Shown: piece by piece, positions 1-16,000 of the stretch
How the letters are laid out: each line of letters starts with the position of its first letter
Numbering within the stretch: the stretch's first letter is position 1
From: a virus
Strand: one strand, 5' to 3'
Length of the DNA stretch: 64,000 nucleotides
IMG/VR virus record: IMGVR_UViG_3300020185_000024
Coordinates: 1-64,000 of that record
The notes under the pieces: model-generated
The model's input: the letters and a program-made list of their open reading frames with translations, nothing else
The model's database searches: none
Told to the model about the DNA's origin: nothing
Position numbers and translations under genes: made by a program

Positions 1-291
1 ATTTAAAGAATTAATAAGATCATGAGAAACTCCAAATGCTAAACCTGAAGCGTACTTAGGAGTGCAATAAGGAGATTCTCCTAATATAACAACTCTAGTC
101 TCATTCCAAGAAGTATCTTTAAAAGCCTTAAATATATCAGGCTTTTTAGGATACACAATGGTTTGATTAGATCTAATATTAACTTGAGTTCCTATCTTAA
201 GAAATTCTTCAGTGTGAATAAACTCTTTGAGAGGTTCGTACCAAGTATTAAATTTCTCTCGGAATAATTCCTCCAATTGAGTTTGGTTCAT
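1..291 (-). CDS. Uracil-DNA glycosylase-like protein (C-terminus beyond window)
   Basis: This gene reads leftward and is cut off by the window edge, leaving 97 codons. The ATG at 291 lies 44 bp inside the end of the preceding gene. The segment FKAFKDTSWNETRVVILGE followed by SPY and SGLAFGV matches the N-terminal half of family 1 uracil-DNA glycosylases, which remove uracil from DNA in base-excision repair. The hallmark GQDPYH is GESPYC here: the general-base Asp is Ser and the His is Cys. It may be inactive, of altered specificity, or a decoy or inhibitor derived from the fold. The neighbouring FEN nuclease and replication genes support a DNA-metabolism role. The fold assignment is fairly secure; activity is doubtful. 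Confidence 0.7.
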   Translation of the reverse strand, partial: MNQTQLEELFREKFNTWYEPLKEFIHTEEFLKIGTQVNIRSNQTIVYPKKPDIFKAFKDTSWNETRVVILGESPYCTPKYASGLAFGVSHDLINSLN

Positions 292-1069
292 AATTATCTA
301 TTTTATATGCATTTAAAAATGTTTCTTCTTTTAATAGAGGAATGCTTAATAATTCAGCATTTTTAGGAAATTGATCTCTATCAACTCTGTCAAATAATTG
401 ATTTATTAAAGCTTCTCTTCTTTCTTTTGATTTATATAAAATTCCACCAGTAGAACCTGTAGAGGTAAAATTGTGAAATGATAATATTTGTTTTTTATAA
501 TCTTCTGTAAATTCAGAATATTTTCCATCTAGAAAATATTTATAATCTTCTTTATGTTGTTCTGGTATATCGAAAACGTAATTAATATGATAAGAATCTG
601 GTTCATATTCTCCTGAATACAAAGGATGCTTACTTATTAAATCTTCAAAATTACTAAACTCTGTACTTCCAGAAAATCTATAAGAAAGTATAATTTTGTC
701 ATAATTTTTATAAGTAGACTGACAAGCCAAATAACAATTTATATAGTTTTTATTATATAAATAGTCTTTTCTTACTCCTCCTAACATAGGAAGAATAAAT
801 ATATTAGATTTTGTATCTGGAGCTATAATTAAAGTGTAAATAACAGCTCCATAAGTAGTAGAAGTTTTTCGTATCTTATATATTTTGTAAGGAGATTTTT
901 TATGCATCCATAAATCTCCTATTTTAAATACTGCAGAACCTATATCTATAGCCACTATATCTCCTAGTTTAATTATAGGTTTTATTTCTTTTTTAGAATC
1001 TAGAATACTAAATTCTCTCTCGTTAGTTTTATTACAACTAAAACTGGCTATATTCTTTGTCATCTCCAT
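248..1069 (-). CDS. Hypothetical protein, 273 aa
   Basis: Soluble protein with no signal peptide or membrane segment. Residues 30-75 (KLGDIVAID, IGDLWMHKKSPYKIYKI) look like a small beta-barrel. The rest is mixed alpha/beta and ends with a charged helix (about 215-240). A second Met at residue 3 is an alternative start. The gene begins inside the end of the exonuclease gene (32-bp overlap) and ends 44 bp inside the UDG-like gene, so these three genes form one tightly packed unit. I do not recognise the family. The context suggests a role near replication or repair, but that is inference only. Confidence 0.75.
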   Translation of the reverse strand: MEMTKNIASFSCNKTNEREFSILDSKKEIKPIIKLGDIVAIDIGSAVFKIGDLWMHKKSPYKIYKIRKTSTTYGAVIYTLIIAPDTKSNIFILPMLGGVRKDYLYNKNYINCYLACQSTYKNYDKIILSYRFSGSTEFSNFEDLISKHPLYSGEYEPDSYHINYVFDIPEQHKEDYKYFLDGKYSEFTEDYKKQILSFHNFTSTGSTGGILYKSKERREALINQLFDRVDRDQFPKNAELLSIPLLKEETFLNAYKIDNYEPNSIGGIIPREI

Positions 1070-1814
1070 TAGAAGTTTTTAAATTTATAGTTTGAACTTT
1101 AGGTATAGACGGTACTAATCCTATTTCTCTTAACATGTCTTCGTCTGTTCTAAGTAAATATACTAATCTAAAATTTTCTTGAAATCTATAAACTCCTTGA
1201 GCTAATCCAAATTCTTCTATATAAACGTCTAAGGTAGCTCCAAAAATAGAACCTTGCGCTTTACTTAATAATTTATTTGCCTTAACTGTTCCTACTCCTG
1301 GAACTCCTTGAATATTATCAGTACTGTCTCCAGTTAAAGTTTGAGTAAATAAAAATTTACACGCTTCCGTTAAACTAGTAGTAGTAAATTTATTTTTACT
1401 GTAATCATAATGTTTACCTTCTACAGTTTCTCTAACATCTTTATCTGGACTGCAAATAATTATATCATAAGTATCTTCTAATTTTTTTTTAAAAAAAGCA
1501 ACGGCATCGTCTGCTTCTAATCTTTTATCTGAATAAGCTAAATATTTCTGTTTTAAATGCTGTCTTAAGGCATAAAATATAATAGGCTTATTTCCTTTCT
1601 TTCTATTTCCTTTGTACGGTCTAATAGTAGCTAAATCGTACCTAAAACAATTATTTTCTGTTATACATAATATATAAGTCTTTGATTTACATTTTTCGAG
1701 AATATCTATTATTCTAGAATCTATATCTGATATAGCTTCTTCTAACGAATTTGCTCCCATTGTATAATACAATAAGCTATCCGCATCTATAATACATAAT
1801 CTTTCTTTTTTCAT
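1038..1814 (-). CDS. 5'-3' exonuclease, FEN/PIN-like with H3TH
   Basis: Phage FEN-type nuclease that would remove RNA primers or degrade DNA from 5' ends using two metal ions. The acidic motifs appear in order: IIDADS at 8-13, YKGNRK at 67-72 (the arch/helical gateway lysine and arginine), EADD at 100-103, SPDKD at 122-126 and TGDSTDN at 161-167. They are followed by the helix-three-turn-helix GVPGVG at 170-175. At 258 aa it is close to T7 gp6 and the stand-alone PolI exonuclease-domain proteins. It lies downstream of the terminator at 1823-1853, so it is probably transcribed apart from the conjugation cassette, together with the two genes to its left. All catalytic residues appear present. 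Confidence 0.9.
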   Translation of the reverse strand: MKKERLCIIDADSLLYYTMGANSLEEAISDIDSRIIDILEKCKSKTYILCITENNCFRYDLATIRPYKGNRKKGNKPIIFYALRQHLKQKYLAYSDKRLEADDAVAFFKKKLEDTYDIIICSPDKDVRETVEGKHYDYSKNKFTTTSLTEACKFLFTQTLTGDSTDNIQGVPGVGTVKANKLLSKAQGSIFGATLDVYIEEFGLAQGVYRFQENFRLVYLLRTDEDMLREIGLVPSIPKVQTINLKTSNGDDKEYSQF

Positions 1815-1870: not shown

Positions 1871-2842
1871 TTAATTGCATATATGCTTAAAAATGTCAGG
1901 ATGAGTCTCGACAAATTTATTTTTTTTCGCATTTATAAAATTACTTAAAATAGCTTTTTTAAATTCTTTTTGTTTATTTATAGGAATTTTTATATTCTCT
2001 GTAAACTTTTTTCCGTAAAATTCTCTCATTTCTTCTTCAGAATGCTCAATAACTTCTCCCCAGTCTAAATTTATAATTTTTTTAAGATCTTTTACTAATC
2101 TATAAGTACCGATATAATTTTTAATATATTCCATTAATTTAGAATCTTCTGTTAAATTTAAAACGTGAACTTTAAAAAATTTTAAAGATATAGGTCTATT
2201 CATTATATATGCTAATCTATAATAAGGAACATATTCTTTTTTTATTTCTAAATGAATAACAGGAATATAGATACTTTTATTATCTATAAAACATCTAACT
2301 AAAAAAACTCCATTTCCTATAAGAGCATGGTTAATATTATTGACCGAGGTTAAATTAATATAAGAAGATAATAAAGACTCAATAGATATTGATTCAGTTC
2401 TATTTAAATTAAAAATACTAGAATAATTACAAACAGAAGAATATAAATATTTTTTAATTTGTGTTTTTATAGAATTTTTAATAGGTAATTGATAATCTGA
2501 ACTTACATCGTAATTTAAATTCGAGTTTGTTAAATAATGACTAGAAAGTAAGACATCTTTTAAGTACTTAGGAAGTTCTCTATCTACATGATTTGTATAT
2601 TCCGCATTGATATTAAGACTTAATTTATTATTAATATCTTTAAAATAATATTCAAAATCTGAATAACTCCTTATAGAAAGATTATTTATTCCTAATAAAG
2701 GAGCATATCCTTCAGTACTCTTATTGCAAACTAAATATAAATTATTTAATATTCCTGAATAAATATTTAAAAATTTTGAATACATAAAGGAAATAGGATA
2801 TGAATCAAGATTAAAATTAATTTTTTCTACGTTTACTAACAT
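1871..2842 (-). CDS. Hypothetical protein in the ubiquitin-like cassette, 323 aa
   Basis: Last gene of the conjugation operon. It overlaps the E1-like gene by 26 bp and is followed by a terminator. Asn-, Tyr- and Ser-rich, with no membrane segment and few cysteines. The N-terminal half alternates short strands and helices, and the C-terminal third (about 240-323) is a charged helical region. PRTRC operons carry further proteins of unknown function (E and F) beside the E1/E2/Ub/JAB set. This protein could be the functional counterpart of one, but I see no diagnostic motif, so that is only a suggestion from position. Confidence 0.75.
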
Positions 2843-3515
2843 TTTCTACTGTATTTATTTGAACATTAAAAGAAGGGATTTCAAATTCCACCATAAATGG
2901 AACTTTTCTAATCTTTCTTTTTTTATTTTTATTAAATATTATATTAGTTACAATAGCAGTCATCATAGAGCCTATCATAGCTCCTGTTTGTGAAGTAGCT
3001 TTATAAGAGCATTCTTGTTCTTCGATATCTTCATCGTTAAATAACCAATTTTCATATTCTTCTTCTTGTCCAGGAACTACACAAAATATTTGAAATGTTT
3101 CTGCTTGCATTCTTCCGTCAATAAAAGCAATTCTATCATCTTGTAACGCTTTCCAAGCATTAAATAAGCATTTTCTAGCTTTCATATTATCAAAAGCAGA
3201 AAAAGTTAAAGGTAAAGCTTCGCCAGCTTCGTCAAGTTCTCCTAAAAAATGAACATTAGAATTATTACAAGTTTCATAAATTAAATCGCTTAACGCTTTA
3301 AACTTAGTTTTGTCTACATCAGAAGTTTTATAAAGTTGACCTCCCATATTATGTTCTTCAAGAATATCCATTTCATATACATAAATTTCATATCCTAATC
3401 TACCTAACATAATTCCTAACCAAGATCCAATACCTCCAGCACCACCTAAAACTACTTGCATTCCAGGTGTATGCCAAGGAGCATCTTTGAATCTATCAAA
3501 ATTTTGATTTTTCAT
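2817..3515 (-). CDS. E1-like/ThiF-family adenylyltransferase (PRTRC-type)
   Basis: Would adenylate the C-terminus of the ubiquitin-like protein encoded three genes upstream and pass it on as a thioester. The Rossmann ATP-binding loop GGAGGIGS is at 24-31. The acidic Mg/ATP site follows as [10 protein letters not shown] (47-56), and the family DN-x3-R signature is SAFDNMKAR at 106-114. A candidate catalytic cysteine is C169 in EQECSYK. The usual N-x-x-R-Q arginine is missing: the segment is NMGGQ (56-60). At 232 aa it is a minimal E1 without a UFD domain, as in PRTRC ThiF proteins. Its ATG overlaps the stop of the JAMM gene as TAATG, which implies translational coupling. Confidence 0.85.
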
Positions 3516-4963
3516 TAATTTATAATATTTTTATAATTAGGATATTGTTCTCCCCATTCTTTATACATTTTTTCTTCTATAGATTCTTCTTCTTCTATAA
3601 AGTTATTTAATATATTTTCAGATTCTTCTATTAAAACATCTGCTACAGCGTCTCCTAAAAAACTAGATATAGGGGCTAATTTTATATTTTTAGCGCACTC
3701 TTTATAAATAGCTGATTGCAAAGTAGTATTTTGATATTCTATGTCCAATGTGTAGAAAGCAGCTTCATAATACTCTTGTAAAAAAGTTTTAGAACCTTCT
3801 GCAAGTCTTTCAGCATCTTTCATAGTAAATTCAACTTGGCTTCCAGTGTAATCATTTTCAGCAGTTCTGCAACAATTCATTATAAAAACTTCTGAATCTC
3901 TTTCTAATAGCTTTATTAAAAAAGAATCATTTGGAATTTCTTCTTCGTTCCAAATGCACATAAATATAAACTTTTTCATTGCTATTTCTTCTTCTTCAGC
4001 AAATCTGTTATTTGCAGGTTTAGGAAAACTTATACTTTTTTGAGTATTTAAATTTTCAATTCCTTCTTTTGTTTTTTTTACGCCATTTTCTTTTTTGCTT
4101 TCTAGTGAGAAATTGTTCTTTGGAAGAACTCTTTTGTATGGAATACTCATTTGTTTTCCTATCTTGCTTTTTTGATTTTTTATTGTAGGATTTAAACTTT
4201 GATGATGATTTCCATTTATGTACGAAGGCTTGTAAATTTTCATATTGCTGACAGTTTTTGCCTTCTTGATTTCTGCCAGAGCATCTAAAAAATATTGATC
4301 TTTTACTTCTGATTGTCCTTTCCATTCAACATCTAAATCTAAAGTTACTAGCACATCTTTTGTAACTTCTATTTGTTGCTCTTTTAAAAAGAAGTTTTCT
4401 AACTTTTTAAACATTTTACTAGGGTAATACTTAACTTTTTCTGTAGTTGTTTCAGGAACCATGTATGCTATTTTAGCTACAGGTTTTTCATCAAAATTAA
4501 CAATTAAAGAAAGTAATAAACTATCTGTAGTAGCGCAATCTTCTAAAGCTCCCATGTCTGTTCCAGAAAAGAAAGCTCTCATATTATGATGAGTATGAAT
4601 TATTCCCATTTTAACTTTTCCTAATTGTTTAGGATATTTTTGAAAATATTTTACAGCTTCATCTCCTGTTTGAAATTCAGTATATGTAGCATTGCCTATA
4701 TCCATAGGAATCATATCTACTACTTCAGCTTTTATGCTAGAAGGATCGTCTATAGTTCCTTTTAATATTCTCCAAACTAGTCTTCCTGACCATTCTATAG
4801 GTCCCACTTCTTTGTGGAGATACCTAACTTTATTTATAAAGTCAATAGGAACTACTAATTTTCCTTTTTCTTTAAGTTCTATAATCTTATGTTTATGATT
4901 AACTACTTTTCTTTCGTTAATAGGAAGAGAAGTATCTCCTCTGTTATCTGTTATACTATTCAT
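3515..4963 (-). CDS. JAB/JAMM metalloprotease (PRTRC protein A-like) with C-terminal extension
   Basis: Zinc isopeptidase of the JAB/MPN family, expected to process or remove the ubiquitin-like modifier. The complete E-Xn-HxH-X7-S-X2-D signature is present: E57 in PIEWSG, H123 and H125 in IIHTH, S133 and D136 in SGTD. The JAB domain spans about 35-210. A Lys/Asn-rich, probably disordered linker follows (about 235-330), then an acidic helical domain of about 150 residues that I cannot assign. At 482 aa it is much longer than a bare JAB domain. It lies 2 bp after the E2-like gene and its stop overlaps the E1-like start. Confidence 0.88.
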
Positions 4964-4965
4964 TT

Positions 4966-6069
4966 TTAAAATTTTATTGAATTTTTGTCATAAAAATCTT
5001 CAATTGAATTAAAATACTTTATTGCTTCACGAATCATATAATAATTTATTATTTCTATTTTAGAATCGCTACTCGCTATATTTTTTTCTTTTATATCTTT
5101 TATATCTACACAAGTAAAATCTATTTTTTTTCCTTTAAATGTATAAGATCCTATTTCTAAGCATAACTTATTTGCTTTAGCTGTTAAAACTTTCTTTGAG
5201 CATTCTTCATTAACGCTATAATAACTATTAGAATTAGCTTTTTTATAAGCTATTAAACCAAAATGAAACTCTTTTTTAACTTTAGGTTTTATTTTAATAG
5301 CTAACTCCATTAATACTTCATCAGTAATATCAGAACTATAAGCATGCATATTAAAAGTTTTGCTTGCAGTTTTTAACTTAAATACTAGATTAAAAAAAGT
5401 TAATAATTCTTCCATTATTAAAAATATTAATGCTTGATGTATCTCACGAGTATGATATCTATCTGTGCTTAATAAATTGTTATTAGAATCTTCAGAATAC
5501 AGATAATTTTTTCTTTTATTTAAATAATAATAAGGAATTCCTTCATCGCTTTGCCAACTTACAAATTCTCTTAAATGAAATAAATAAGCTAATACATGAC
5601 TTAAACGCTTAGTTTTGTCTGACTCTTTTGAACTTCTATAAACTATATTGTTTATAGGACCAGATCCTGTACAAAATTTTTGCCATCCCCAATTATGATT
5701 TGAAATATTACTTGCTTTTTTTAAATGAGAATGAACATATCCAGATAATAAATTATACCAGCTAGCTGATAAAACCATTCCCTCTAAATCACTCATTAAC
5801 CTAAAATTGCTAAGATTTATTTTAAAACGTACTAGCAAATTATAAATAGTTGTTTTATTTTCTGAACCTAATTTTCCATTTTGAATAGTTATTTCAGGAA
5901 ATCGTATAGTAGTTATTAATTTGGTTCCTATAACTCTACATTCTACATTATCTTCTCCATAAGCGTTATTTGCTGCTAAAGTTACTTTAGAAATAAAATC
6001 TTTTTCACTTAATTCTTCAGATGTTTCTTGTTTTTCTACAACTTTCTTTTCTACTTTTTCTAAATTCAT
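4966..6069 (-). CDS. E2-like protein (prokaryotic E2 family D / PRTRC protein B-like)
   Basis: Candidate ubiquitin-conjugating enzyme, 367 aa. The stretch FPEITIQNG (57-65), a beta-strand block, GYVHSHL at 110-116 and KFCTGSGPI at 131-139 form the H-x-H plus Cys pattern I associate with the E2-D family of PRTRC operons. C133 would be the thioester cysteine and H113/H115 the conserved histidines. The N-terminal 20 residues are Glu/Lys-rich and probably disordered. A terminator (6083-6121) separates it from the small genes upstream, so readthrough or a local promoter must set its level relative to the Ub-like gene. The family assignment rests on motif and context only. Confidence 0.75.
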   Translation of the reverse strand: MNLEKVEKKVVEKQETSEELSEKDFISKVTLAANNAYGEDNVECRVIGTKLITTIRFPEITIQNGKLGSENKTTIYNLLVRFKINLSNFRLMSDLEGMVLSASWYNLLSGYVHSHLKKASNISNHNWGWQKFCTGSGPINNIVYRSSKESDKTKRLSHVLAYLFHLREFVSWQSDEGIPYYYLNKRKNYLYSEDSNNNLLSTDRYHTREIHQALIFLIMEELLTFFNLVFKLKTASKTFNMHAYSSDITDEVLMELAIKIKPKVKKEFHFGLIAYKKANSNSYYSVNEECSKKVLTAKANKLCLEIGSYTFKGKKIDFTCVDIKDIKEKNIASSDSKIEIINYYMIREAIKYFNSIEDFYDKNSIKF

Positions 6070-6082
6070 AATAAATATTTTT

Positions 6083-6121
6083 AATTAAAAAAAAAGAAAA
6101 GAGCCTAAGCCCTCTTCTTTT
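6083..6121 (-). terminator. Intrinsic terminator inside the conjugation cassette
   Basis: On the minus strand, AAGAG and CTCTT pair around GGCTTAGG, and the stem can be extended by flanking A/T pairs. A run of nine T follows. It lies between the 61-aa gene and the E2-like gene and could make the Ub-like protein more abundant than its enzymes. Confidence 0.7.
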
Positions 6122-6140
6122 TAAAATCTTGAATTAAAAA

Positions 6141-6326
6141 CTAAAATGCTTTTTTCATTTCTTCTTCTAATATTTTTTTACTTGTCTTAATTATTATATT
6201 TGATAATTTGTCAAGATCTTTATCAAATTCTTCTAACAATTCGTCTAAGGAAGAAAAATTTAGTTTTTTTTCTAATTCGTCTCTATTTATTGTCGTTTTA
6301 GTAGAATTTCTTTCTACTGTACTCAT
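6141..6326 (-). CDS. Small acidic helical protein in the Ub-like cassette, 61 aa
   Basis: Short protein predicted to be almost wholly helical: residues 15-60 are rich in Leu, Glu, Lys and Asp with heptad-like spacing. Its ATG overlaps the stop of the ubiquitin-like gene (TAATG), so the two are probably made in fixed proportion. No known family recognised. It could be a partner or adaptor of the modifier, but that is inferred only from coupling. Confidence 0.7.
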   Translation of the reverse strand: MSTVERNSTKTTINRDELEKKLNFSSLDELLEEFDKDLDKLSNIIIKTSKKILEEEMKKAF

Positions 6327-6571
6327 TAAATTCCAGATTTAACTTCCATAGGAGAAAGAAAGATAGTCAAATCGCCATCAGAAGGAGATTCTGGCAATAA
6401 AGCTTCATCAGCTTCTAAAGTACTACTGTTATGACTAACTACTGCTTTCATAGAGCTAATCTTATTTACTCGTGATGACAATGCTTGTTTAAGGTCTCCC
6501 CAAGTTGTAGCATCAGTGTTTACTTCAAAGTCAGTACCTGACTGTGTGTTATAAATTATAATAGTTCTCAT
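6326..6571 (-). CDS. Ubiquitin-like beta-grasp protein (PRTRC protein C-like)
   Basis: 81-aa protein with the strand-strand-helix pattern of a beta-grasp fold: MRTIIIYN (strand 1), TDFEVNTD (strand 2), TTWGDLKQALSSR (helix, about 23-35), SMKAVVSH (strand 3) and GDLTIFLSP (last strand, about 66-74), then a short tail ending EVKSGI. PRTRC C proteins share this size and the TIFL-P ending. The terminal G80-I81 could be trimmed by the JAMM protease to expose a glycine for activation; this is inference. It precedes E2-, JAMM- and E1-like genes in the same operon, which is the strongest support. Confidence 0.8.
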   Translation of the reverse strand: MRTIIIYNTQSGTDFEVNTDATTWGDLKQALSSRVNKISSMKAVVSHNSSTLEADEALLPESPSDGDLTIFLSPMEVKSGI

Positions 6572-6587: not shown

Positions 6588-6968
6588 TTAGAGAATAAAT
6601 ATATATACCCCAGGATTTTCTTTATCCACATGGTATCCTTGGAAAGAAGGATTAATAAACTCCATTGAGTCATCCTCTAACCATTTAAATTCTTGCATCA
6701 TATCAAAAACTATTTGTGAAATATTAATATAATCGAATTTTCTTTTATCTTTTCTTACAAAATAAAGACTCAGCTTTAAAGGATATTCTTTTCCTTGAAT
6801 TTTAAGTTGAAATTCTTCTTTTTTGTTTTCATAAAAAGATTTAGTATTCTTTTTGTAAGTCATTACTGTCTTACTATTTATTAGCATTTTTCCAGTCCAT
6901 CTTTTACTATTTTTAGAAGAAGGAGTATTAAATGGAATAAATATAGCTTCATTAAATTTTAAGCTCAT
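6588..6968 (-). CDS. RusA-like Holliday-junction resolvase family protein
   Basis: 126 aa, the usual length for RusA. The N-terminus IPFNTPSSKNSKR resembles the PxPKxSxR region that binds the junction. KFDYINISQIVFDMM followed by WLEDDSMEF corresponds to the D-x-DN...DDS block that carries the catalytic aspartates. The second Asp of the D-x-D pair reads as Ile in DYIN, so activity needs confirmation. It would resolve branched replication or recombination intermediates before packaging. It lies 17 bp upstream of the Ub-like gene, and its ATG is 17 bp inside the primase gene. Confidence 0.7.
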   Translation of the reverse strand: MSLKFNEAIFIPFNTPSSKNSKRWTGKMLINSKTVMTYKKNTKSFYENKKEEFQLKIQGKEYPLKLSLYFVRKDKRKFDYINISQIVFDMMQEFKWLEDDSMEFINPSFQGYHVDKENPGVYIFIL

Positions 6969-7956
6969 TTTTTATTAGATTTATAGTTAACTTTTTTTCG
7001 TAAAGTTTACAATAGTCTGTAGGGTCTTTAGCCCCTTCCATGTTTTCTGGTACAATATAGTTTATGTTATAATATTCAGAATGTTGCTTTGCAAAATTAA
7101 TTCCAGCATCATCCCAATCGTAGAATATTACTAATCTTTTATATCTTTTTTTTAGTATATCTATAAATTTATCGCTAATCAATACTCCTTCAGCATTAGG
7201 AGCAATAGCAGGTATATGTAAGTTTTCAGCAAAAAACATACACTCTTTATTAGAAGAAGTTATTATTAATAATTCCCCTTTTTCAGGTATTATGTCGTAA
7301 CCGTGTATAGAGTTCATATTACAGTTTCCATACCATTTATTATCGTAAGAACCTTTTTCGGCATAAGGCTGATAAATTTTCTTACGAGAACCTACATGAA
7401 TACAATAAGCTAATTCTAAACACTTTACTCTAGTATTTTCAATCCAATAGTAATCTATAGGTACTACTTTAAATATGTTGCAAGTAGATTTAGAAATTCC
7501 ATATTGGTCCCAATACTTAGTATCTTTCCAATTCCAATTTCTATATCTTACTTTGATTTCATATTTTCTAGGTTTATCAATTACTTCAAGTTTTTTATTA
7601 TTTGGAGCTAAAAAACCTTTAGTAAACTTTTTTACATCTTTATAATTTCCTAATTTTAAATCGAAATCTACATCTACTACTCTTAGAGCTTCTATAAATG
7701 TATAATTGTATTTTTCCATTATAAATTGAAAACAATCTCCATGTTGTCCAGTTTTCAAATCTTTAAACCTTAAACCATTAGATGCTTGAAATACACCAAA
7801 AGAAGGATTCATATCTTTATTTCTTAAAGGAGATGAAAAAGTTTGATTTATTTTAAACTTTTCATCTATATAATAACTAAAAATATCATACTCAGATATT
7901 TTATTGAGTATATTTTCTTTTGTGAGTGTAGTTTGTGAATCTCTAGAGGCTATCAT
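6952..7956 (-). CDS. DnaG-type primase with Toprim domain
   Basis: 334 aa. The N-terminal region (about 38-95) has SSPLRNKDMNPSFGVF and GDCFQFIMEKYNYTFIEAL, matching the zinc-binding-domain fold of bacterial and phage primases but without the CHC2 cysteines. A linker with a long basic block (125-145) follows. The Toprim fold is visible as ELLIITSSNKE (228-238) and VIFYDWDDAG (276-285), whose DWDDAG is the metal-binding D-x-D motif. Synthesises RNA primers at the fork alongside the DnaB-like helicase and PolB encoded upstream. A terminator lies just before the gene, so a local promoter or readthrough must supply it. Confidence 0.85.
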   Translation of the reverse strand: MIASRDSQTTLTKENILNKISEYDIFSYYIDEKFKINQTFSSPLRNKDMNPSFGVFQASNGLRFKDLKTGQHGDCFQFIMEKYNYTFIEALRVVDVDFDLKLGNYKDVKKFTKGFLAPNNKKLEVIDKPRKYEIKVRYRNWNWKDTKYWDQYGISKSTCNIFKVVPIDYYWIENTRVKCLELAYCIHVGSRKKIYQPYAEKGSYDNKWYGNCNMNSIHGYDIIPEKGELLIITSSNKECMFFAENLHIPAIAPNAEGVLISDKFIDILKKRYKRLVIFYDWDDAGINFAKQHSEYYNINYIVPENMEGAKDPTDYCKLYEKKLTINLIKNELKI

Positions 7957-15902: not shown

Positions 15903-15904
15903 AG

Positions 15905-16000
15905 AGGTTATTGCAAGACTCGAACTTGCGACTTCGTGTGTATTAAATGGTTTACCTTAGCTTACCAACCACAATGCTCTACCAACTGAGCTAAATAACC
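15905..16000 (-). tRNA. tRNA-like gene with expanded anticodon loop (possibly Thr-GGU)
   Basis: Minus strand. The acceptor stem GGTTATT/AATAACC is perfect. The D arm is GCTC-AGTTGGTA-GAGC, and the T arm is GCAAG-TTCGAGT-CTTGC. TTGTG pairs with CACGA as an anticodon stem, but the loop is 31 nt instead of 7. The loop starts GTTGGTAA, which contains the TTGGTAA usual for tRNA-Thr(GGU). The 3' CCA is not encoded. The 24 extra bases may be an insertion, a cryptic intron or decay. The gene is transcribed just ahead of PolB. Confidence 0.6.

Follow-up and report, generated by a model that had tools for sequence, protein, structure and literature searches.

The genes at positions 1871-6571 of a stretch of phage DNA raise the question of whether a virus can carry a ubiquitin-like conjugation pathway of its own, and of what such a pathway would be used for. 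The window, that is, the whole stretch of DNA analysed, consists of 64 kb from the 90,666-bp IMG/VR record IMGVR_UViG_3300020185_000024. In bacteria, ubiquitin-like conjugation is known mainly from anti-phage defence (CBASS, Bil) or from mobile cassettes whose job is unsettled (PRTRC). Here, what appear to be the genes of a complete pathway belong to phages, in a lineage which includes cultured gut phages, and had been annotated as thiamine biosynthesis or hypothetical genes. Gene content, a fixed gene order, conservation of catalytic residues, the modelled fold of the ubiquitin-like modifier (Ubl) and a constant non-terminal glycine within it were observed. Judged from these sequence features, the cassette probably represents a self-contained phage pathway of ubiquitin-like conjugation and deconjugation, a statement which concerns the biochemical pathway and not its role.

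Components of the cassette

A preliminary description of the locus had proposed a cassette of the PRTRC kind with five open reading frames (ORFs). According to the ORF list, all five are present on the minus strand at the places it gave, while a sixth ORF (1871..2842) inside the same interval had been left undescribed. The modifier precursor (Ubl; 6326..6571, minus strand) has 81 residues and ends in ...VKSG-I. It was modelled by AlphaFold2 as a single-domain beta-grasp (ubiquitin fold) with a pLDDT of 88, in agreement with the earlier assignment, and the model resembles ubiquitin, NEDD8, SUMO, ISG15 and the Bacteroides protein BfUbb (TM approximately 0.7; Z of 9-10). No Pfam family was matched by the Ubl, and its sequence profile revealed nothing above noise in the PDB. 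Among the 73 distinct Ubls aligned, the glycine of a K-S-G-like motif was present in every one and was never the last residue, being followed by 1 residue in 15 proteins, by 2-5 in 5 and by 24-252 in 53. Long tails are of acidic or helical character, and many finish with an E-rich segment plus G-F/Y. On the model, the Ubl is a ubiquitin-like beta-grasp protein with a conserved glycine in its C-terminal region. Since this glycine is never C-terminal, maturation by the JAB protease of the cassette is predicted, and in the window it would occur after G80 with removal of Ile81. The conserved KSG-like motif with its constantly non-terminal glycine is new here.

The E2-like conjugating enzyme (367 residues; 4966..6069, minus strand) was assigned from its motif and from structural matches, with C133 as the candidate catalytic residue. 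The family motif is HxH...FCxG...ES..G.P, and the H-x-H and FC noted previously correspond to H113-S-H115 and C133. H115, C133 and G135 were found in 75/75 aligned homologues (one gapped) and S174, G177 and P179 in 76/76; H113 is replaced in 14 homologues. The structure model is confident only in the core, roughly residues 21-60, 71-110 and 131-170. The order of its elements (helix, four strands, HxH loop, Cys, helix) agrees with E2s, and with a second-look aligner ranks 1-10 were all occupied by E2, UEV or RWD proteins (Z 5.1-5.9, rmsd 3.2-5.3). A UBC/E2 fold is likely on this model, while the C-terminal half is divergent and has a fold without assignment.

The JAB/JAMM isopeptidase (482 residues; 3515..4963, minus strand) matched Prok-JAB at an E value of 0.0022, which is below the cut-off. 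Its zinc site has the complete E...HxHx7SxxD arrangement, with E57, H123, H125, S133 and D136 retained in 79/79 homologues, so that the JAMM protease with all zinc ligands described earlier is borne out despite the sub-threshold match; its C-terminal tail is long and variable. The single-domain activating enzyme (E1; 232 residues; 2817..3515, minus strand) was matched by Pfam ThiF above the cut-off (6e-14) and by phrog_15670 (1e-60). As previously proposed for a minimal E1, it has a GxGGxGS loop and a candidate catalytic cysteine, C169, which lies in the crossover loop; D50, K71, D109, R114 and C169 are present in 77/77 homologues. ThiF families were its best NCBIfam matches, with MccB and UBA5 among the best PDB sequence matches. 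Invariance of the predicted catalytic residues of E1, JAB and the E2-like protein is the pattern expected of a working cascade.

Two further ORFs accompany these genes. The start of the 61-residue helical ORF h61 (6141..6326, minus strand) overlaps the Ubl stop codon (TAATG), which agrees with the translational coupling to the Ubl described before. Most phages with a short Ubl have small ORFs at this position; the h61 sequence itself is specific to the window. It was considered as a possible detached counterpart of the C-terminal Ubl extension of other phages; sequence similarity was marginal only, and this identification was not adopted. The sixth ORF, gpX (323 residues; 1871..2842, minus strand), overlaps the end of E1 and was named by position only as the equivalent of crAss001 Gp75. 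In 66 loci the gene after E1, which usually overlaps or abuts it, belongs to one divergent, fast-evolving family, and crAss001 Gp75 joins this gpX family by profile. The gpX of the window shares the position; its similarity to the family is not significant (E 1.6), and its membership is thus not supported. The gpX protein could be an adaptor or a target.

Other phages indicate how the tail of the Ubl is built. In cr106_1 the Ubl ends in KSGKF, and an HNH endonuclease gene lies between it and a 130-residue ORF which matches the extension of crAss001 Gp79 (L005, 4629-5832). In cr116_1, where none of the four cassette genes is present in the stretch examined, an 82-residue ORF occupies the equivalent place (L106, 10120-10368) and matches the portion of the Ubl model that covers the extension (15.6 bits, against 11.4 for the best of 2000 shuffles). 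Judging by these two cases, a cleavable Ubl seems to have been fused to an otherwise separable protein, the extension, much as ubiquitin is fused to ribosomal proteins. A SAP/HeH nature of the extension was rejected, the Pfam SAP match having an E value of only 0.05-0.2.

A more distant locus was found in the Xanthomonas jumbo phage PhiXhv-15 (L104, 2817-6696), which encodes an E1 (profile E 1e-31) and an 892-residue protein with Cys-rich ends, in which HPH...CLG is aligned with HSH...FCxG of the family. A 141-residue ORF upstream ends in ASGG and is a candidate Ubl by position, size and GG end. No Prok-JAB was detected in the 228,725 bp of this genome. Ubls are tailed in phages with a JAB, whereas the candidate Ubl of the phage in which no JAB was detected has a free GG; this contrast points to JAB as the enzyme that matures the precursor. 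Erwinia phage Ep032 has a region near-identical to the PhiXhv-15 E1 locus.

Distribution and genomic slot

By sequence, the window phage is a crAss-like phage near Steigviridae. Its terminase shares 41-45% identity with those of crAss001, cr111_1 and DAC17, and terminase, major head protein, DNA polymerase, helicase and Sak4 were recognised via PHROGs. The crAss-like phages are abundant viruses of the human gut. Using tblastn, E1 was found in 78 phage records (29 Flavobacterium, 29 Bacteroides, 12 uncultured crAss-like, and others) and JAB in 74, the latter corresponding by organism counts to the E1 list minus the Xanthomonas/Erwinia jumbo phages. IMG/VR contained 305 loci bearing E1. Gene order was established by profile searches in the 80 best loci together with crAss001, FpV4, DAC15 and cr106_1; it was Ubl-E2-JAB-E1 in 83/83 loci with enough sequence, 4 further loci being cut by a contig edge. 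This recurrence in the same order excludes chance. Within the phage order the cassette is patchy, and the gene set is all-or-none. Cultured phages with the cassette include crAss001, DAC15 and Flavobacterium FpV4. When neighbours were counted in loci whose sequence extends 3.5 kb or more upstream of the Ubl, a DNA primase homologue preceded it in 78/78, normally at a short distance; a replicative helicase was found in 69 cassette loci and a PD-(D/E)XK exonuclease in 55.

No tblastn match to the E1 of the window was obtained in 72,556 plasmids. A pattern scan of 84,980 bacterial and archaeal genomes, which detects close relatives only, returned three candidates, one of them a close relative on a 3.7-kb contig of a metagenome-assembled genome, where it is followed by a gpX homologue. 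A host-derived cassette was rejected on these two results. Counting of IMG/VR phages with and without the cassette yielded nothing with primase as bait and one locus with Sak4.

The site of the cassette was compared in about a dozen genomes. In Steigviridae and Asinivirinae it is the interval between the primase and uracil-DNA glycosylase (UDG) genes, which contains the Ubl cassette in crAss001, DAC15 and cr106_1, a cassette of ATP-grasp, COOH-NH2 ligase and amidotransferase (GATase) genes, here called the amidoligase cassette, in cr108_1 (L105) and phi14:2 (L107), and rIIA-rIIB in cr116_1 (L106). This primase-UDG slot thus seems, from the gene content, to be a site at which three unrelated cassettes have been exchanged. 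In four Suoliviridae the primase is followed by DNA-metabolism genes and no cassette, and the cassette is absent from Suoliviridae and some Asinivirinae which have homologous primase and terminase. Being dispensable and exchangeable, it is not a replication function required throughout the order. In cr116_1 the primase and rIIA are each split into two parts, and endonuclease genes lie within or next to them (L106, 7959-9550 and 10428-13634); both are perhaps intron- or HNH-interrupted genes.

Proposed pathway and possible roles

From the components and their conservation we infer every chemical step of the pathway, and its target, as follows. The Ubl precursor would be cut by JAB after the glycine of K-S-G, removing Ile81 in the window. 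The one-domain E1 would then adenylate Gly80 and form a thioester at Cys169, from which the Ubl would pass to Cys133 of the E2-like protein. Because no E3 was recognised, the target may be chosen through the divergent C-terminal half of the E2-like protein, perhaps with or without gpX. Conjugation would place the Ubl on a lysine of some target that is present early in infection, and JAB could also remove the Ubl again. Cleavage by JAB at the KSG glycine leads to a chemical prediction: tryptic digestion of a conjugate should leave S-G on the modified lysine, a mass shift of +144.05 Da. Since the cassette occurs in laboratory-grown phages, the use of ubiquitin-like tagging by phages is directly testable, and the cassette offers a tractable phage-host model for PRTRC-like systems.

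Several results weigh against this pathway. The E2-like protein of the window matched no Pfam, PHROG or NCBIfam family and no model of known function, and its structure model gave no significant match with Foldseek alone. The E2 assignment, which depends on the modelled fold and the motif, has Z scores of only 5-6. No E3 was recognised, and the 141-residue ORF of PhiXhv-15 showed no match to the Ubl family profile.

As to role, we lean, with reserve, towards counter-defence or host takeover, in which defence or housekeeping proteins of the host would be inactivated or redirected by attachment of the Ubl, or in which the set would titrate ubiquitin-like defence systems of the host (CBASS, Bil). 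In T4, rIIA/B counters RexAB exclusion (PMC8594841, PMC9391042), and the sharing of one slot with rIIA-rIIB or the amidoligase cassette is what tips the balance slightly in this direction; the patchy, all-or-none occurrence points the same way. The slot was, however, compared in only a handful of genomes, and the functional link of rIIA-rIIB is an analogy with T4. Moreover, position and order are stable over 35-50% E1 identity, unlike those of a fast-turnover anti-defence locus. The constant primase association also counts against this preference, since a role in replication accounts for it no less well than counter-defence does.

Regulation of the replisome, the main rival, is possible, though somewhat doubtful. 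Here a phage protein of replication or recombination (primase, Sak4, helicase or exonuclease) would be reversibly modified with the Ubl, so that DNA replication is timed or localised. SUMO and ubiquitin on PCNA provide an analogue. The upstream primase in 78/78 testable loci and the frequent helicase and exonuclease genes speak for such a role, as does the scarcity of E1 and JAB matches outside phages of this kind. The phage cr116_1 has no such module but retains the extension domain of the Ubl as a separate ORF close to its primase, and hence the Ubl seems to be fused to a replication-arm protein. On the other side, the slot is exchangeable with the rIIA-rIIB and amidoligase cassettes, and the Suoliviridae and Asinivirinae mentioned above have a replisome which works without the cassette. 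Replisome regulation and counter-defence need not exclude each other, and the weights given to them are a matter of judgement. A combined picture is offered tentatively, as a fair possibility that falls short of being probable: an intrinsic viral Ubl system, whose modifier is matured by JAB at KSG and, in some phages, fused to a separable protein of the replication arm, and which would tag host or phage proteins early and be functionally interchangeable with the rIIA-rIIB and amidoligase cassettes.

Relation to known systems and genome context

The PRTRC assignment of the preliminary description stood in part. A true PRTRC system, transferred from plasmid to phage and sharing whatever job in plasmid maintenance PRTRC has, is unlikely. 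The PRTRC plasmid loci L092-L100 read E-C-F-B-A-ThiF, usually after ParB, and their relative order C-B-A-ThiF (L093-L095, L097, L098) is that of Ubl-E2-JAB-E1 in the 83 phage loci. In the profile comparison, 97.6% was obtained for phage E1 with PRTRC ThiF and 95.8% for JAB with PRTRC A, all other pairs giving about 1% or less; E2-like with PRTRC B (E 0.055) and Ubl with PRTRC C were not significant. Between the E2-like protein and PRTRC B the best alignment covers ten residues at the active-site Cys (FCTGS/FCSGN) and pairs the invariant Cys of the E2-like protein with that of the PRTRC B FCxG motif. In profile searches of the kind proposed earlier, Pfam ThiF matched the E1 above its cut-off, but E1 reached only 23.5 bits with TIGR03736 (PRTRC ThiF; cut-off 144.75) and JAB 11.3 bits (E 0.18) with TIGR03735 (PRTRC A; cut-off 101.8). 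Across 8 phage genomes, possibly only fragments, there was no match to TIGR03737 (PRTRC B; at E<=0.01), TIGR03738 (PRTRC C) or TIGR03734 (PRTRC ParB), for which the control plasmid gave 2.4e-35, 1.7e-15 and 1.3e-117, respectively. PRTRC membership was rejected on these missed cut-offs and absences, as well as the lack of plasmid E1 matches; together with the shared order and the E1 and JAB homology, they make the cassette kin to PRTRC and not a member.

Both systems have a single-domain E1 with a crossover-loop Cys and an E2 with an FCxG-type active site. In contrast to the plasmid-borne PRTRC, the cassette is carried by phages, no PRTRC E or F gene was recognised near it, and its E2-like protein has a conserved HxH before the Cys. 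The phage Ubl always has a tail after the glycine, the residue at which most of the PRTRC C proteins inspected end. Some PRTRC C proteins (L093, L094, L097) are tailed after KG, for example with GAKGAHA, or with approximately 50 residues in L097; given these residues, PRTRC C may be matured as well. Row 6d of Iyer et al. 2006, which probably corresponds to PRTRC, is defined by an E2-like protein that lacks the classical upstream His and has a fully conserved His on the C-terminal side of the Cys (PMC1779556); no invariant His follows C133 in the E2-like alignment.

A sulfur carrier pathway (ThiS/ThiF or QbsE/QbsD/CysO-type), in which a Ubl thiocarboxylate would serve nucleotide or cofactor thiolation and JAB would only trim, is very improbable: the ThiF, MccB and UBA5 matches of the E1 would suit it, and JAB trimming of sulfur carriers is known (QbsD), but E1s in general resemble ThiF, the E1 is always accompanied by a separate E2-like protein whose Cys is invariant, and no ThiG, cysteine synthase or rhodanese was found among the neighbours scanned.

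Bil (BilABCD) is likewise a four-gene Ubl/E2/JAB/E1 set, in which JAB pre-processing of the modifier has been reported (PMC11354881), as is predicted for the phage cassette. The differences are that BilA has two Ubl domains against one 81-residue beta-grasp domain here, that BilD consists of inactive and active adenylation plus Cys domains (PMC11354881) against a single 232-residue ThiF domain, and that BilB has a CEHH motif whereas no invariant Glu/His occurs just after C133; Bil is also a bacterial defence, whereas this cassette is phage-borne. CBASS Cap2/Cap3 shares with it a JAB and distant E1 similarity (PADLOC E1-E2 models E 5e-5; Cap2 in PDB E 2e-5). Cap2, however, is an E2-E1 fusion acting on CD-NTase, while here E1 and E2 are separate ORFs with a dedicated Ubl. 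When six cassette proteins were searched with PADLOC, only the E1 domain was matched and no CD-NTase was found.

Homologous proteins have already been deposited as crAss001 Gp75-Gp79 and as PHROGs 15670, 15310, 15560, 16107/21448 and 15446. Besides that of E1, PHROGs matches in the window were phrog_16107 and 21448 for JAB and phrog_15560 for the Ubl, and the crAss001 and FpV4 counterparts add phrog_15310 (E2-like) and phrog_15446 (gene after E1), all labelled as of unknown function. Deposited homologues are named 'thiamine biosynthesis protein', 'metalloprotease domain' or hypothetical and not as a ubiquitin-like pathway; one protein of the crAss-like phage bajarodcaudo virus 1 is already named 'E1 enzyme family protein'. 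In the open-licence literature nothing was found linking crAss-like phages or PRTRC phages to ubiquitin-like conjugation, and as the literature covered was open-licence only, the cassette of crAss-like phages may have been described elsewhere earlier.

Pfam and PHROGs matches of the neighbouring genes, all on the minus strand, confirmed that the cassette lies in the replication arm next to RusA, primase and FEN genes. Upstream are a RusA-like resolvase (6588..6968; Pfam RusA, phrog_1682) and the DNA primase (6952..7956; phrog_12622, 8e-41), and downstream is a 5'-3' exonuclease/FEN (1038..1814; phrog_107, 9e-56), followed by a 273-residue ORF (248-1069, minus strand) without family match. At 15904-16000 (minus strand), 2 bases before the DNA polymerase ORF, ARAGORN reported a tRNA-like gene whose identity is unclear and whose anticodon has four bases (ggta); it may be spurious.

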